Positions 38,993-47,381 of a stretch of DNA of 64,000 nt are shown here, one piece after another. Position 1 is the stretch's first letter; each line of letters opens with the position of its first letter. The stretch is from Nitrospira sp. GTDB lineage: Bacteria > Nitrospirota > Nitrospiria > Nitrospirales > Nitrospiraceae. The translations under genes were made by a program, and so were the position numbers. The stretch is taken from contig JARFXP010000001.1 of the NCBI GenBank assembly GCA_029194675.1, positions 1,294,501 through 1,358,500 of the forward strand, in the 5' to 3' direction. The notes below the pieces were generated by a model. It ran no database searches. It worked only from the letters and a program-made list of their open reading frames with translations, and was not told the DNA's origin.

Positions 38993-41900
38993 TTATTCTT
39001 TGGATAGTGCTTGGTAAAGGGCTTGAGTCTCTTGGGTGGGATTTATGCCCAGTCGAGACCGGATGGAATGGCCGAAACGCTGATAGATAGCCAGGGCCTC
39101 GGTCCGTCGGCCGAGCCGACCATAGATGATCATAATCCTACGGCAGAAAACTTCAGCGACGGGCTCGACTTCAAATGCTTTGAGATAGCAATCAACCGCA
39201 CCTGTCAAATTACCATCCTCTTCAAGGCTGATCCCGAGCCGTTCCGCCAGGCTCATATAATGCGCGCGTAATCGCTCGCGATAGGTCAAGGCCCAGGGTG
39301 CTGGTTCACCCTGAAGAAAATGGCCGTGATAAAGGTTCATGACGCGCTCCAGTGCACCTCGATCGGTCATGTCGGCCTGTGCTACGGCACGTTCGAACCT
39401 TAAACAATCGGCCCAGATATAGCGGGGATCTAAAAACAATTGCCGATCCTCGAGGCGAACGGCCTGTTCATGTTGCAATAGTTTTCGCAAACGATGCAAA
39501 GTGGTTCTGAGCGCCTGGGCCGCAGCATCACCCTCGGCGTCTGGCCATAGGGCATCGGTCACGCGGTCCTGATGCACCGCTTGTCCTCCGAAGGCACACA
39601 AACATTGAAGCAGTTCAAGCGGCTTCCGCTGAGACTTCCCTGGTGTGCGGAGCGGCTTGTCATCGCACATCAGTTCGAACCGACCCAATGTGTAGAGCCT
39701 GATTGGCCACGGCCAGTTCTCGATGTGCGGTGAGTCGGCTGTAAGATTACGGCGATGAATAACACTTTTGACGTATACCACTTCGATTTCAGACTGGAGT
39801 GCTTGAGAAAGCAGACGTACCATGACATGCGGGCGCCACCAAAGGTCGAGGGCAAGATAATCGTTTTCTCGTGCGATCCGCAGCCCCTCGCGCAAAGGAG
39901 TCAGTGCCTTCTGCTTTTCGCCATCTTTTATCCACGAATACGCTTCAACGAGTAGACTTTTATGTTCTAGAAATGAGCTGTTCATCTTTCGGGCATATTG
40001 AATTGCCTTCTCGAGGTAGTGACGCGCTTTTTCTCCATTGCCGGATTCAATTAAGATCTGAGCAAACCCAATGCGGTTGGCCGTTAGTGTAAACGGTCGT
40101 CCTAGTGCTTCATGCATCTCCATGCCTTTCAATGCATGGTCGTGTGCGTTGGCCAAATCATTTTGTAATAATGCGATGCCAGCTCTGAGAAAACAGAATT
40201 GTGAAGTCGCATGCTTAAGCTGTAAGTGGTTGGATGCTTCCGCCTTATCCAGGTATGCTTCGGCCTTTCGTGAGTCGCCTTCAGCAAGTGCGTTGTACAC
40301 ATTGAGTCCGTACAACATGCATTCCAGAAGTGGCATGCCAGCTTTTTGTGCGATATGGAGTCCCTCGCGAAGCTTTTCCTCGGCGAGCGAGTGGGAGGCC
40401 GTATTCCAGGCATAATTTCCCTCCGTCACCCGCCAGAGGACAAGCAATATTGGCGGTATAGGCCCGGCCGCTAACAAGGGATTAATTTCAGCCAGAACCC
40501 GTCGCGCTTTGCGAAAATCGCCCCGCCAAATAATGAGTTTCAAAAAGGTGCATGCCACCCAAATTCTGGCAATTGGGTCGGCGGCGGATCGGAGAAAATC
40601 ATCCGCTCGCTTTTCCAGAGCAATGAGCAATGGATGATGTGGCGCCGCATACACAAGGCCCTGGAGGCTACCCAGCACCTTGGCCTCGATTTGCATCGAT
40701 GGAAACCCTTTATAGCGAGTCAAGAGCTGTTGGAGCCGTTCTGCCCATGCCACCACAGGGGTCATCTCCCCCTCTGCATAGAAATAGGCATCCATGATGG
40801 CACCACAGGTGAGAAACAATCCTGCGCTATCGCCCACGATCTGAAATTCGTCATAGGCCAACTCTAGGTCTGCTATCGCTGCCGGGGGATTGAAATTCGT
40901 ATGACTGAGGCCCAGCCAGTACAGCAACCACGGCATGCGTTCCACTATGGGGAGAGGGCAGAGAGCGATTAATCCCTGAAGGGCCTGATGACGACCCTGA
41001 GCGAGTAAGGCGGCAGCATGGTCGCAAATCAGCTGGGTGAGCTTAGCCCATTCTTCCGCTTCGGCAAGCAGGGCCGCAGCGGCTTCGATCTGACCGTCCT
41101 GGGCGGCGAGGGTCGCCCCGAGATACCGGATTTCACGGAGTTGCGACACGGACAAATAGCGACTGGCACGGTCAAGCAAGAATTTACGGAACAGATCGTG
41201 ATACTGATAGTGGATCTCCTCACCGTCTCGTCGATCTATAAAGAGCCGACGGCGGTAGAGATCGTTTAGCAAATCACTCGCCTGGGCATTGCCACTAATC
41301 TCCATCGCCATGCTCACCGTCATCTGCGGCACAACGGCGGTGCGCATCAGAAATTCTTGCAACTCCACGGTGGCTTGATCGAACATCAGCCCAGCAAAGT
41401 AACTGAATACGGATTCCATAGTTTCGGACCGAGAAGAATGGTCAGCCCTCGCGGTGCCCTTGAACCGATCCAGCACGAGAATCAATCCGGCAACCCACCC
41501 ATTGGTTTGATTCTGCAGTGAATGAAATAGTGTCTCCTCACTGAGTCCCTTTACGGCGCGGCTTATAATGGTAGTTTCTTCAAGCGTTAAGCGCAGTTCA
41601 TCCCAACTCACCTGTCCTATGAGGTTGTTAGCAAGAATCCTCGCATACTGCGGCGGCGGTGGCGTGCGGCTGATGACGAGGAGGTTTATGCCCGCAGGAA
41701 GCTCCAGCACTGCTCCCTGGATGACGTTGTGGAAAGAGGAATCAGCGATAACGTCCTGGTAGTTGTCTAGAACCAGTGTCGTGGTTGTTGGCAGACCGGC
41801 AAATAGTTCGCGGAAGTAGCGCCTTGTGAATCCGGGGAGATCGGGCGCGTACTCAGGTCTCAAGACGGGCAATCGCAGTCGCTTTTTTCCTGCCGCCGTT

Positions 41901-42178
41901 TGGCCCGCTAGGGTCAGATAGTGGAAAAAGGTCGCGGGATCGGCATCACCACCGTCAACTTGATACCAGATATTTGGTAATCTGCGTGTTTCTGTATAAC
42001 TTGCCGCAAGTGCTGTCTTTCCAGATCCAGGAGGCCCGGCAATCCATACAACGGGATGGCTCTGGCGCTCTTGATCCAACCGTGTGAACAATCGATCACG
42101 AGCAACCACCCGGAAGAGTTTCGGGCGGGTTAGCTTCGCAAGGGTGGTCGGCTGTCTTGGCATTTCCGCATCGCTCAC
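38993..42178 (-). CDS. Large MalT/SARP-type regulator: NTPase, TPR-like array and BTAD domain
   Basis: The 1061-residue protein has an N-terminal STAND-type NTPase like MalT (LTRPKLFRVVARDRL, Walker A GPPGSGKT at 48-55, then LVLDNYQDV). Residues about 370-790 are helical TPR-like repeats. The C-terminus (about 810-1060) has a winged-helix DNA-binding segment (LYTLGRFELMCDDKPL) and a bacterial transcriptional activation domain (YHGHFLQGEPAPWALTYRER). Such proteins activate transcription when a small ligand loads the sensor. The closest same-strand genes are otsB and otsA upstream, but its target is unknown. Confidence 0.88.
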   Translation of the reverse strand: MSDAEMPRQPTTLAKLTRPKLFRVVARDRLFTRLDQERQSHPVVWIAGPPGSGKTALAASYTETRRLPNIWYQVDGGDADPATFFHYLTLAGQTAAGKKRLRLPVLRPEYAPDLPGFTRRYFRELFAGLPTTTTLVLDNYQDVIADSSFHNVIQGAVLELPAGINLLVISRTPPPPQYARILANNLIGQVSWDELRLTLEETTIISRAVKGLSEETLFHSLQNQTNGWVAGLILVLDRFKGTARADHSSRSETMESVFSYFAGLMFDQATVELQEFLMRTAVVPQMTVSMAMEISGNAQASDLLNDLYRRRLFIDRRDGEEIHYQYHDLFRKFLLDRASRYLSVSQLREIRYLGATLAAQDGQIEAAAALLAEAEEWAKLTQLICDHAAALLAQGRHQALQGLIALCPLPIVERMPWLLYWLGLSHTNFNPPAAIADLELAYDEFQIVGDSAGLFLTCGAIMDAYFYAEGEMTPVVAWAERLQQLLTRYKGFPSMQIEAKVLGSLQGLVYAAPHHPLLIALEKRADDFLRSAADPIARIWVACTFLKLIIWRGDFRKARRVLAEINPLLAAGPIPPILLVLWRVTEGNYAWNTASHSLAEEKLREGLHIAQKAGMPLLECMLYGLNVYNALAEGDSRKAEAYLDKAEASNHLQLKHATSQFCFLRAGIALLQNDLANAHDHALKGMEMHEALGRPFTLTANRIGFAQILIESGNGEKARHYLEKAIQYARKMNSSFLEHKSLLVEAYSWIKDGEKQKALTPLREGLRIARENDYLALDLWWRPHVMVRLLSQALQSEIEVVYVKSVIHRRNLTADSPHIENWPWPIRLYTLGRFELMCDDKPLRTPGKSQRKPLELLQCLCAFGGQAVHQDRVTDALWPDAEGDAAAQALRTTLHRLRKLLQHEQAVRLEDRQLFLDPRYIWADCLRFERAVAQADMTDRGALERVMNLYHGHFLQGEPAPWALTYRERLRAHYMSLAERLGISLEEDGNLTGAVDCYLKAFEVEPVAEVFCRRIMIIYGRLGRRTEALAIYQRFGHSIRSRLGINPTQETQALYQALSKE

Positions 42179-42622: not shown

Positions 42623-43450
42623 TCATCCTCCGCCGGAGACTACTTTGGAGAGACGGGCAACTGTGGCTTCCTGCGGAAGCGGGTGAATGTTTTGGTCACC
42701 ACCCTCGACAAGAAGTCGAAGCACCTCGGCGATTTCTGCCTGTCTTTTTAGGAAATACCGCGCCGAGGACCCGTTCTTCTTGCCGATTCTCACGGTGACG
42801 ATGCGGGCATCTCGTAGCGCAAAGACATCTTCATCGGTTTCGTCATCTCCCACATAGAGAGCGCTGCTACAATTAAGTCGACGCATGTACTCCAACAAGG
42901 CCGTACCCTTGTGCGACGCCGTCGGCGGCATCACATTGACGACGGATTTCCCAAGGACAATGCGGGGAGGAGGAGACAGTTCGGCAACGATTCGCGAGAT
43001 CAGCGCCCGGGCCTCATCTCGGTGATCGACGGTTCGATAATGGAATGAGAGCGAGTAGAACTTCTCCTCGACGAGCACTCCACTTCGAGCCAGTTCGTCC
43101 TGAAATCGTTCGTTGATCAATTGCAGCCATCCGGAACTGGTTTCTCGGACTTGCTGTATATCCTCTTGGCGCGTATGAGGGCCTTCTGAGCCATGGTTCC
43201 CGATCAAGTGGGGAACGGCAGTCCCGACACGTGAGCGCAAGTCCTCCACCGAGCGTCCCGAGATGATCGCGGTGGGAGCGCGCTTCGCGAGTTCCTCAAG
43301 CCGGACACGGATGGGACGCGTCATCCTGGCAGCGGGAGGATCTCGGACGATTTTCGCCAATGTCCCGTCGAAATCAAACGCAAACAGAGAACGCCCTTTC
43401 AGAAGCGCCCCGAGGTCGTTTCTTCCTGTTTCCGTCAACAAATAGTCCAT
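42623..43450 (-). CDS. otsB: Trehalose-6-phosphate phosphatase OtsB
   Basis: The 275-residue HAD phosphatase has motif I FDFDGTLA near the N-terminus, IISGRS, GNHGSEG and the motif IV GDDETDEDVF, all typical of OtsB. It removes phosphate from trehalose-6-phosphate to give trehalose, an osmoprotectant. It starts 10 bases after the otsA stop, so the two are one operon. The C-terminus is about 20 residues longer than usual. Confidence 0.93.
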   Translation of the reverse strand: MDYLLTETGRNDLGALLKGRSLFAFDFDGTLAKIVRDPPAARMTRPIRVRLEELAKRAPTAIISGRSVEDLRSRVGTAVPHLIGNHGSEGPHTRQEDIQQVRETSSGWLQLINERFQDELARSGVLVEEKFYSLSFHYRTVDHRDEARALISRIVAELSPPPRIVLGKSVVNVMPPTASHKGTALLEYMRRLNCSSALYVGDDETDEDVFALRDARIVTVRIGKKNGSSARYFLKRQAEIAEVLRLLVEGGDQNIHPLPQEATVARLSKVVSGGG

Positions 43451-43460
43451 CGTCTACCCA

Positions 43461-45704
43461 TCAATTCAGCAGGTTGGGCCCCCGGCGCACATGTTTCATG
43501 ACTCGCTCCTTTTGTCTCATGCGTGCCGCATCGATAAGCATACGACCGGCCCAACGATACACATTGAACTCCTGAATCAGCCCCCTCATACTCTGCATCC
43601 TGGCCCGCTGTTCCACCTTCGGCATCGTCAGGCCAAGGTGAAGCGCGGCCGCAAACTGATCGATGTCGTAGGGATTGATCACGAGCGCCTCCGTCAGTTC
43701 CCGCGCGGCTCCGGTGAATTGACTCAGAATCAACACTCCCTGCTCGTCGTCCCGAGCACCGACGAACTCTTTGGCGACCAGATTCATGCCGTCATGGAGA
43801 CTACTCACCACGCACAGGTCTGCGCCACGGTAACACTCATGGACCTGTGCCGGCTCATGATGGTGAATCCGCAGGCAGATCGGTTCATAGTCGTCCCGCC
43901 CAAACCGCTTGTTGATCTGCTCTGCCAGCGTAGAGACTTGGCCGGTAAAATGGTGGTACTGCTCGATCGTTGACCGGCTGGGGGCTGCGATCTGGACAAA
44001 CGTAAATTTTCCGATCCATTCAGGCTGGAGCTCCAGCAACCGTTCCACGGCCATAAACCGTTCCAGGATCCCCTTCGTATAATCCAGACGTTCCACGCCA
44101 AGGCCGACCAGACGATCAGGAGGCATCCCATAGGTCTCCCGGAGTTTGATTCGGCATTCCGGGACCGACCGTTGATCATGAAGCCATCGCAACGGCCACT
44201 CGATGGAAATCGGATAGGGGTTGACCGCCGTCATCTTGCCCCCATAGGAGACCGTTGAACTGTTTCGATCGATCCGCGCCTCAAGCAACCGATCGATACT
44301 ATCGATAAAATTGTTGCAATGAACTCTGGTGTGGAATCCCAGAATACTGCTTCCGAGCAGCCCTTCCAGAATTTCTTCACGCCAGGGACAGATCCCAAAG
44401 CTTTCCGCGTTCGGCCATGGAATGTGCCAGAACATGATGATCGTCGCGGTCGGCAACTTATCTCGAATCAGCTTCGGAAGCAGGGCAAGATGGTAATCCT
44501 GAACGAGGACAACCGGATTGTCGCTCGTGGCCTCCTCGTAGACGGCCTGAGAAAATCGCTCGTTGATGGCCACATAGTGTTTCCAATCCGATGAACGGAA
44601 CGTGGGCCGGACATGGGCGATATGACAGAGCGGCCACAATCCCTCGTTGGCGAACCCATAATAGTATCCGGCCTCCTCTTCCGCAGTGAGCCACACGCGG
44701 CGGATCTCATAGCTGGGATGTGCCGGCGGCACACGGACATGGTCTCGTCCGTCCACCACTTCCCGATCGGCGGAACCGTTCCCATGCGCGACCCATACGC
44801 CGGAGCAGGCACGCATCACCGGCTCCAGCGCCGAAACGAGCCCGCTCGCCGGTACCTGTAGGACGATGTTTCGATCCTGCCAGTAGTGGGCATAGGGCTG
44901 TCGGTTGGAGACAATCAACACCTGATCGCCGGCGAGTTGCTCATGCAGGATCGTCTTGAGGCTGGCTGGGGTCCATGAAATCTGGCTCTCATCGCGCATG
45001 CGGCGGTCAGCTTCAAGAGCCTGCACCAACGAGCGCAAGTCCTTCGCCAACGGCCGGAGTTCCGGCGCATGCTGCTCGTGCGCCAGCGGGGTCAGCAGCC
45101 TTTCTCCCTTCAACATGGCCCGAACTCCGGCCATCCATCCTTTCCAACTGAAATGTGCCACCAACACGGTGACCAGCGAGATGACGGCCGTAAGCCCCGC
45201 AAACAGATAGAAGACATACCATTTTGTGTCGCTGCTCCGTTGCTGAATAAAACTCATGTCGTGGATGAGCAGGAGGCGCCCCAGCCGGCGCCCGTTTGCT
45301 TCGATCAAGGCAGAAGTGATATGGAGCGGTCCGCTACTGAATGACCGAACAGTGGACGAGTCGGATGCAAGGTCGCGTGTAGCTTTACAGGTGACGTCCT
45401 GCGGGTAGGCCTGCGTCTCATAGAGCAGCTGGTGGTCGAGATCACAAAATCCCAGGGCGTACAATCGTTCGTCCTGAAGAATGCGCGTAAAATAGGCCAG
45501 GATCTTGTCCTTTGAATCGGATACCAGAAGATCCGCAAGCGGTCCCTCCATCGTATTGATCATGACTTTGGACCGCATGTCGAGATCTCGAACAAACCAT
45601 TTCAATTCAAGCGAGTCGACAAGAGGGATTACGCCATAGGCGATCACTCCCAACACGATCGCCAACGGGAGAACGAATCGAAATGAGAGCCTCAAGAGCC
45701 TCAT
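43461..45704 (-). CDS. otsA: Trehalose-6-phosphate synthase OtsA fused to a membrane sensor module
   Basis: Residues about 262-745 are a GT20 glycosyltransferase (IVSNRQPYAHYW, VWVAHGNG, VLVQDYHLALLP, FWHIPWPNAE, GVERLDYTKGI, SLHDGMNLVAKEFV), which joins UDP-glucose (or another NDP-glucose) to glucose-6-phosphate. OtsA of E. coli lacks the first 250 residues. Here they consist of a membrane helix (10-30), an extracytoplasmic sensor of about 135 residues, a second helix (about 165-190) and a HAMP-like helical segment. The enzyme should therefore be membrane-bound and could respond to an external signal. The LVSALEP loop that binds substrate is present. Confidence 0.92.
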   Translation of the reverse strand: MRLLRLSFRFVLPLAIVLGVIAYGVIPLVDSLELKWFVRDLDMRSKVMINTMEGPLADLLVSDSKDKILAYFTRILQDERLYALGFCDLDHQLLYETQAYPQDVTCKATRDLASDSSTVRSFSSGPLHITSALIEANGRRLGRLLLIHDMSFIQQRSSDTKWYVFYLFAGLTAVISLVTVLVAHFSWKGWMAGVRAMLKGERLLTPLAHEQHAPELRPLAKDLRSLVQALEADRRMRDESQISWTPASLKTILHEQLAGDQVLIVSNRQPYAHYWQDRNIVLQVPASGLVSALEPVMRACSGVWVAHGNGSADREVVDGRDHVRVPPAHPSYEIRRVWLTAEEEAGYYYGFANEGLWPLCHIAHVRPTFRSSDWKHYVAINERFSQAVYEEATSDNPVVLVQDYHLALLPKLIRDKLPTATIIMFWHIPWPNAESFGICPWREEILEGLLGSSILGFHTRVHCNNFIDSIDRLLEARIDRNSSTVSYGGKMTAVNPYPISIEWPLRWLHDQRSVPECRIKLRETYGMPPDRLVGLGVERLDYTKGILERFMAVERLLELQPEWIGKFTFVQIAAPSRSTIEQYHHFTGQVSTLAEQINKRFGRDDYEPICLRIHHHEPAQVHECYRGADLCVVSSLHDGMNLVAKEFVGARDDEQGVLILSQFTGAARELTEALVINPYDIDQFAAALHLGLTMPKVEQRARMQSMRGLIQEFNVYRWAGRMLIDAARMRQKERVMKHVRRGPNLLN

Positions 45705-46074
45705 GGGAACAAGGTAGTGTACTTCCAGAGAGAAATCAAATGCGTTCCGGTGTGGACTCGTACTGACTCATCGGTGATTGCCCGGTAATTTCCCACAGGC
45801 GTAATCAGCTCCGCCTTCGCCGTCAGTCCTCCGTGGGGTGACGTGCTACACCTTCCACCTATCGACTGACCGATCCGTCGTCTTCCTCTGCATCTGTCAA
45901 CACCCTCGACCATCTTCGTAAAGGCTCGCTCACCGGCACCGCCATACCACTCGTCAAAGGAAGTCCCCGCTCGGGGGGTGTGCCCCGACCTTTGACCGAT
46001 ACCCTTGGGAGCGCCCACTCGGCGACGCTTTGCCCATCAATGCTGACGCTCAAACTCCAGACGAAAGGTGGGTC
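45705..46074. other. Divergent intergenic region without a gene
   Basis: Open frames are short and lack codon signatures. The stretch likely holds the promoters of otsA and of the receiver-domain gene; no hexamer pair stands out. Confidence 0.4.
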
Positions 46075-46644
46075 ATGACCACAGCAGCACGGAAGCGATC
46101 CTCCGGCCCCTTGCTGATCTATCTCATCGATGCACATCCAGTCGCTCGACTCGGGCTGTGTTCTTTTTTCGAGAACCAGCCGTCCGTCTCCGTCGTAGGT
46201 GACGCTTCCACGCTCGCCGCTGCCCTACCGGATTTACGACGCTGCAAGCCTGATGTGCTGATTACAGATATCTTCCCGATCCCAAAACGAGTGTTGGGTC
46301 GAATGCGCACTCTCCGTGTGCTCTACACCTTCGAGACGCTGGAACAGTGCTCGCTGCCTAGACTTATGGAGGATCTCACCCATGGACAAGCCGGCTTTGC
46401 GTTGAAGAGTCTGTCATTGGACAGCCTCCTGAAGGCCGTGCGTCAGGTGGCAGCAGGCCGAAGGTATAGAGACCCAGCCTTCATGCGCCTTGTCAAAGCA
46501 GAGCAGCAACGGCGGGCCCGGAGTCACCAGGTGAGGGCTCTCTCGTCGAAGAAGCATGGACGCCAACCTAACTTGGCTCACGGTCAGAAAAAGGCGCAGA
46601 AAAGAACGACAAAGAGCAGAACACAGGCGAAAAGAAAGAGGTAA
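46075..46644 (+). CDS. Receiver-domain protein with a basic tail, no HTH output
   Basis: From the ATG at 46075 the product has 189 residues. Residues about 12-130 resemble a response-regulator receiver of the NarL type (LIYLIDAHPVARLGL, DVLITDIF with the phosphoacceptor Asp). Later conserved positions, including the usual Lys, are poorly kept. The typical LuxR helix-turn-helix is absent and the last 40 residues are very basic (KKAQKRTTKSRTQAKRKR). It may bind nucleic acid non-specifically, or be a decayed regulator. No histidine kinase is adjacent. Confidence 0.6.
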   Translation: MTTAARKRSSGPLLIYLIDAHPVARLGLCSFFENQPSVSVVGDASTLAAALPDLRRCKPDVLITDIFPIPKRVLGRMRTLRVLYTFETLEQCSLPRLMEDLTHGQAGFALKSLSLDSLLKAVRQVAAGRRYRDPAFMRLVKAEQQRRARSHQVRALSSKKHGRQPNLAHGQKKAQKRTTKSRTQAKRKR

Positions 46645-46804
46645 ATCAAGGTGCAGCTTCTTGGCTTGCGCCGCCAAGCCAGTTTTTCTCCTGAGAACCC
46701 CGCTTTCACGCGAGTCGAATGGTGAGCCAGCCCTCCCACCTGAGATATCATTAGTGCTATTCTTCGCTGGCCAATACCCGTATCTCGATCATAGACAAGT
46801 CGTT

Positions 46805-47030
46805 ATGGGCCGATGGATGAGACTGACGGACTACCACGCGAAATACTCCGCCCATGAGCCGACCAAACGCTGCCCATCGGACAGCGTCGAGAAGCTTGCG
46901 AGCGTGCTCGCTGATGCGCAGGTCGACCTCAAGCCTCACCAGGTGGAGGCGACACTCTTCGCCTTCCGCAGTCCCTTCTCGAAAGGGGCCATCCTTGCCG
47001 ACGAAGTGGGCCTTGGGAAAACGATTAGCG
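46805..47030 (+). pseudogene. N-terminal fragment of an SNF2/RapA-like helicase
   Basis: The fragment reads MGRWMRLTDYHAKYSAHEPT, then LKPHQVEATLFAF and the Walker A region ILADEVGLGKTI, which is the typical start of a large SNF2-type helicase of phage-defence or restriction loci. Coding character ends right after the Walker A motif, and the following sequence belongs to a methyltransferase tail. The gene is therefore lost by an internal deletion. Confidence 0.7.
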
Positions 47031-47059
47031 TACCTTCGTCAACCCCTTGCGGAATCCGT

Positions 47060-47381
47060 TCTCTCCCCCCTAATCTTGCAATTAGCCGCTCCTACAGTTC
47101 TGAGAGTGATATCTGGCGATCCTGGCGACAAGCTCGACTTCAGGCACCTGAAGCTCGCACTCGGCGAGGCGCTATCAGTGGGCAAGGAGCACTACGGCAT
47201 GACCCGGCCGGGCAAGACCGCGCACTTCGACACCATCCTGGAACTGATCCGCGTCATGGCAGAGAAGAAACCCGAGCACGTGGTCTACCTCGACGAAGGC
47301 TTTGCCGGCGACGACCTGCTCAAGGCCAACGCCGTACAGATTTTCAAAACCAAAGGCGTGACGAGCTTTAAGACGGTGTGA
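47060..47381 (+). pseudogene. C-terminal remnant of a type III DNA methyltransferase (Mod)
   Basis: About 80 residues at the 3' end (KTAHFDTILELIRVM, then VVYLDEGFAGDDLLKANAVQ) match the end of type III Mod subunits, which finish with a similar LK-N-V motif and F-TV. The catalytic part is missing. It is joined directly to the helicase fragment. Its stop is 4 bases before the DUF4160 gene, the normal gene order of a type III locus. Confidence 0.72.

Follow-up and report, generated by a model that had tools for sequence, protein, structure and literature searches.

The window, a 64,000-nucleotide stretch of a Nitrospira sp. contig, carries on its reverse strand a gene in which a trehalose-6-phosphate (T6P) synthase of glycosyltransferase family 20 (GT20) is fused to an N-terminal membrane module (hereafter sensor-OtsA), followed by otsB. 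The features of the locus are:

42623..43450, reverse strand: otsB, trehalose-6-phosphate phosphatase, 275 aa, starting 10 bp downstream of otsA
43461..45704, reverse strand: membrane sensor-OtsA fusion gene (P0001), ATG start, intact reading frame, 747 aa
43533..44924, reverse strand: GT20 trehalose-6-phosphate synthase domain, residues 261-724 (PF00982; E. coli OtsA catalytic positions kept)
44925..45152, reverse strand: cytoplasmic linker, residues 185-260, about 75 aa, helix-loop-helix, divergent HAMP-like (pLDDT 43-65; hhalign)
45153..45215, reverse strand: transmembrane helix TM2, residues ~164-184 (Kyte-Doolittle peak 2.42 at 164-182; model helix 151-202)
45222..45614, reverse strand: periplasmic PDC/Cache-type sensor domain, residues ~31-161, 130 aa (AlphaFold2, VIA-align, dN/dS)
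45387..45389, reverse strand: Cys106, probable disulfide partner, co-occurring with Cys87
45444..45446, reverse strand: Cys87, probable disulfide partner, co-occurring with Cys106
45618..45674, reverse strand: transmembrane helix TM1, residues ~11-29 (Kyte-Doolittle peak 2.53; model helix 2-62)

Sensor-OtsA is the sole GT20 gene of the genome (5.2 Mb, 99% complete). A misread frame, a wrong start codon or an accidental joining of reading frames could be ruled out, as the layout and frame are kept in hundreds of relatives, and misassembly was likewise excluded by the presence of the same gene in many independent assemblies. The product of otsB scores 119.4 bits against TIGR00685 (cut-off 68), and otsB is the next gene after otsA in nearly all relatives. 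In most relatives a GH15 hydrolase gene, encoding a putative glucoamylase or trehalase whose start has no evident signal peptide, lies divergently upstream of otsA; it is absent at the window locus, and of the GH15 genes elsewhere in the genome the nearest is only 36% identical. TreS and TreZ are encoded in the same genome, which rules out sensor-OtsA as the only trehalose route; it would therefore control one of several. A report on Antarctic Nitrospira notes OtsAB alongside other trehalose routes of the genus, in passages without comment on architecture (PMC11014942).

Several further genes flank the pair. Downstream of otsB on the same strand (38993-42178) is a MalT-like STAND ATPase/TPR regulator that ends in a SARP-type (BTAD) domain; it is also found downstream in one relative (L037, 65%) and was not detected at the loci of other relatives, many of which end before that point. 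Divergent from otsA, at the position where most relatives have GH15, a forward-strand gene (46030-46644) encodes a short protein resembling response regulators, which has a weak receiver match and a tail rich in Lys and Arg. It is followed on the forward strand by an SNF2-type helicase fragment that appears to be divided between two frames and is probably what is left of a decayed gene (46556-47381), and near this fragment by a plasmid pRiA4b ORF-3-like protein (PF07929; 48007-48708), a possible mobile remnant on a chromosomal contig.

The enzyme part matches PF00982 with an E-value of 4e-118 (395.6 bits, gathering cut-off 32.5), and no other Pfam domain was found in sensor-OtsA. In an alignment with E. 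coli K-12 OtsA, R268, G288, W357, D403, H427, R539, K544, R577, D638, N641, K645 and E646 are identical; these correspond to the catalytic and NDP-glucose/G6P-binding residues of the E. coli enzyme, and the predicted catalytic site is thus intact at every position checked. Against the OtsA equivalog model TIGR02400, sensor-OtsA reaches 397.9 bits, under the cut-off of 564.85. It belongs by domain to a divergent GT20 subfamily, for which we infer T6P synthase function. The kinase and ATPase domains of a sensor histidine kinase are absent according to Pfam and NCBIfam, the cytoplasmic part consisting of GT20 only.

Ahead of this domain, two hydropathy peaks and AlphaFold2 models agree with the layout proposed in the preliminary description, namely helix, periplasmic domain, helix, linker and GT20. 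Arg2, Arg5 and Arg9 precede TM1, which predicts a cytoplasmic location for the N terminus and GT20 and a periplasmic one for residues ~31-161. In the AlphaFold2 model of residues 1-258, built on 39 relatives, a long helix (2-62) runs through TM1 and is followed by another helix, by five strands and by a long helix that passes through TM2. Its pLDDT values are ~85-93 from residue 11 to ~180 and drop to 43-65 in the linker; a second, full-length model agrees with it. In these models two N-terminal helices and an antiparallel five-stranded sheet are predicted between the two TM helices, and this order of helices and strands is that of a classic PDC/Cache domain.

Structure searches of the N-terminal module with Foldseek and VIA-align ranked extracytoplasmic sensor domains of sensor kinases and chemoreceptors at the top. 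For the periplasmic domain, VIA-align Z-scores were 13 (LuxQ), 12.4 (CitA), 12.1 (WalK), 11 (DctB), 10.8 (DcuS) and 10.1 (CusS), and a modelled WalK (9a5d) matches from TM1 through the domain to TM2 (Foldseek E 1e-8; VIA-align Z 12.5 over 184 residues), values to be read with the tool's warning that Z-scores below about 13 may lack specificity for long-helix models. Nearly all of the matches shown are sensor domains, and they span the α/β domain (models 25-153 or 31-161), from which we conclude that the periplasmic part is a folded sensor-type domain. The N-terminal region is thus not a mere anchor devoid of a folded periplasmic domain, given the confident model and the fold matches to LuxQ, CitA and WalK.

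At the level of sequence, Pfam, NCBIfam and PADLOC returned no usable family for the N-terminal part. The window protein has no Pfam match to Cache, CHASE or PAS, and among the 39 relatives a Pfam CHASE4 match of at best 0.0015 occurs in four. A weak Adeno_E3B match was dismissed as a product of TM-helix composition. A sequence profile of the periplasmic domain found no match in the PDB, so the kinship to sensor domains is visible by fold only, and the domain is placed in PDC/Cache on that ground, with no family assignment claimed from sequence.

Both AlphaFold models are at their weakest in the linker. Searched for PF00672 (HAMP), the window protein gives no match at E ≤ 10 and the 39 relatives none at E ≤ 1. 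When the linker was compared by hhalign with the 12 HAMP domains that the genome encodes, it scored 17.1, with an hhalign probability of only 7%; in a null of 200 column shuffles (mean 8.9, maximum 14.2), none reached this value. The alignment, at the same 7% probability, falls in the expected register of AS1, Gly-Glu, connector, Glu-Leu and AS2. The HAMP likeness proposed earlier is therefore only partly borne out, with length, register and a score above all shuffles in its favour and the negative Pfam search and low hhalign probability against it; taken together, the evidence is suggestive of a divergent HAMP-like linker.

Among 57 divergent, non-redundant relatives, no variation is seen at D40, R44, R80, R156 or W244, and almost none at H148 and D149. 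Of the 57, 51 carry both Cys87 and Cys106 and the other six carry neither, a pattern that a disulfide would produce and that makes the two probable partners. Comparison of sensor-OtsA with six Nitrospira homologues gave dN/dS values of 0.06-0.15 for the periplasmic part, 0.04-0.21 for the linker and 0.04-0.08 for GT20. The periplasmic part is thus constrained nearly as closely as the enzyme, and these low values mean that the N-terminal module is maintained by purifying selection.

Full-length relatives occur in 24 of the 34 other sampled Nitrospira genomes and in two other genera of the order among those sampled. A scan of genome contigs with two short peptide patterns recovered 534 relatives. 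With few exceptions the 80 best are either full length or ended by a contig edge, and they come from Nitrospirota, Bdellovibrionota, Betaproteobacteria, Deltaproteobacteria/Myxococcota and Nitrospinota. The N-terminal profile matches 11 of 369 genomes in the class of a betaproteobacterial relative and 28 of 144 in the phylum of a Bdellovibrionota relative. A plasmid collection searched with the N-terminal part gave no match. An Acidobacteriota-labelled contig with 83% identity (L061) may be misbinned. In one genome (G034, L031) a TGA lies within the N-terminal part and the C-terminal part is found elsewhere only as a fragment, which may reflect a broken copy or a break in the assembly.

Among the GT20 reading frames listed, all 22 that are ≤ 43% identical to the window GT20 have no TM segment. 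Those that are ≥ 48% identical have two throughout, apart from a pair of Aminobacter plasmid copies and the locus L123/L129, which have one. In a maximum-likelihood tree of GT20 domains, all TM-bearing sequences fall in one clade (support 100/99), and the soluble OtsAs of the same class, the soluble set that was included (E. coli OtsA is not in the tree), lie outside it. The tree indicates that the N-terminal module was gained once and later reduced twice to a single TM, and sensor-OtsA is accordingly a widespread subfamily of single origin, not one odd gene. The reduced lineages, represented by Aminobacter plasmids (L033/L034) and L129, have kept the enzyme with one TM helix. Because these two lineages shed most of the module yet retain the enzyme, the module would be dispensable for catalysis, and the Aminobacter copies provide a natural anchor-only version for comparison. 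The Aminobacter members (L033:5022-6869 and L034) adjoin amylo-α-1,6-glucosidase and GT4 genes. The fused clade itself consists of two branches, and the sister branch (L125, L126, L130, L154, L163 and L164) keeps the TM spacing and lacks the cysteine pair; its dCache/HAMP module is more recognisable, with matches to dCache_1 (1.8e-5, below cut-off) and HAMP (0.11) that are both weak.

The computed topology, sensor fold, catalytic site, operon-like adjacency of otsB, purifying selection and single-origin clade together make it probable, in our judgement, that sensor-OtsA is an inner-membrane T6P synthase whose activity or assembly is controlled by the extracytoplasmic sensor of PDC/Cache type to which it is fused. 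A sensor fold alone does not prove sensing; from the architecture taken with purifying selection, however, we can reasonably infer control by an outside signal, as the preliminary description had proposed, and the signalling, its direction and the nature of its cue are put forward conditionally. The PDC/Cache module would probably dimerise, as in sensor kinases, and may perceive a periplasmic cue in the form of a small ligand, a partner protein or a redox state. Helix movement could then travel through TM2 and the HAMP-like two-helix linker into GT20, whose activity or assembly would change, and the T6P formed would be dephosphorylated by the neighbouring OtsB. For the more specific proposal of a one-component receptor enzyme, of single origin and present in several phyla, in which an external ligand or state allosterically gates compatible-solute synthesis within one polypeptide, we judge the chances to be about even. 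Accounts of how external stress acts on compatible-solute synthesis in bacteria usually invoke transcription, transporters, or cytoplasmic ions that act on soluble enzymes. A receptor enzyme, if real, would bypass phosphorelay, second messenger and transcription altogether, and the coupling would be direct and open to test in a single purified protein. Trehalose regulation would then also have to be read differently in Nitrospira (comammox organisms and nitrite oxidisers), whose records list the gene simply as OtsA.

The same architecture could instead serve as a scaffold, in which the folded domain and two helices hold the synthase at the membrane or engage an envelope or periplasmic partner without allosteric signalling. 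The poorly predicted linker with its weak HAMP likeness, and the tolerance of a single-TM anchor in Aminobacter and L129, are consistent with this reading, to which we nevertheless give rather less than even weight and regard as somewhat doubtful: two-helix PDC modules with such spacing are almost always sensors, purifying selection acts strongly on the domain as well as on the linker, and the sensor-kinase-like matches run from TM1 to TM2. A product other than T6P, for example glucosylglycerol phosphate, might be read from the sub-cut-off TIGR02400 score and from the separation of the fused clade from soluble OtsA, but the glucosylglycerol model scores lower still (282.8), the catalytic positions match E. 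coli OtsA and a trehalose-phosphatase gene is adjacent, which makes such a product very improbable.

If the module does act as a sensor, more than one cue may be considered. The preliminary description suggested osmolarity, and perception of osmolarity or turgor would fit trehalose as an osmoprotectant. Precedents exist in the Arthrobacter A3 OtsA, for which a role in sensing osmotic stress has been proposed through a different mechanism (PMC5685639), and in Thermoproteus tenax, where TPSP is coupled with a mechanosensitive channel gene (PMC3634074). Sensor-OtsA, however, has no sequence feature that points to osmosensing and matches no osmosensory family, and the fused genes have otsB and GH15 as neighbours rather than osmotic genes. 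The folds closest to it bind citrate, dicarboxylates, metals or partner proteins, in line with a fold class whose usual ligands are small molecules or partner proteins; an osmotic signal is thus without support and appears unlikely. Alternatively, the state of the Cys87-Cys106 disulfide could report envelope oxidation, as the paired presence or absence of the two cysteines would allow, yet a disulfide with a structural role would account for that pattern equally well, and in the sister clade the module persists without the pair, so that redox sensing seems decidedly improbable. The reading we prefer remains that of a sensor-controlled synthase.

In the open-access literature we found no description of a membrane, HAMP or Cache trehalose-6-phosphate synthase, and the sensor-OtsA architecture is real, widespread and apparently undescribed. 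With E. coli OtsA it shares the GT20 fold, the otsB neighbour and the conserved residues R10, G23, D131, H155, R263, K268, R301, D362, N365, K369 and E370, whereas the E. coli enzyme is soluble and has neither membrane nor periplasmic module. The sensor domains of LuxQ, CitA, DcuS and WalK have the same PDC/Cache fold between two flanking TM helices; their output, however, is a histidine kinase, and at a sequence identity of only about 7-16% the likeness is one of fold. The TPSP-GT-MSC operon of T. tenax also ties trehalose synthesis genetically to an osmotic-response membrane protein, but through separate proteins, with activation by a partner glycosyltransferase and no sensor fusion (PMC3634074). 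Arthrobacter A3 OtsA is itself proposed to sense stress, yet it is self-assembling with a morphogenetic role, and its description mentions no TM helix or sensor domain (PMC5685639). A parallel in overall plan exists with receptor-type diguanylate cyclases and chemoreceptors, which likewise join an extracytoplasmic sensor through a TM segment and linker to a cytoplasmic output; in those proteins the output is a signalling domain, while in sensor-OtsA it is a metabolic, biosynthetic enzyme.
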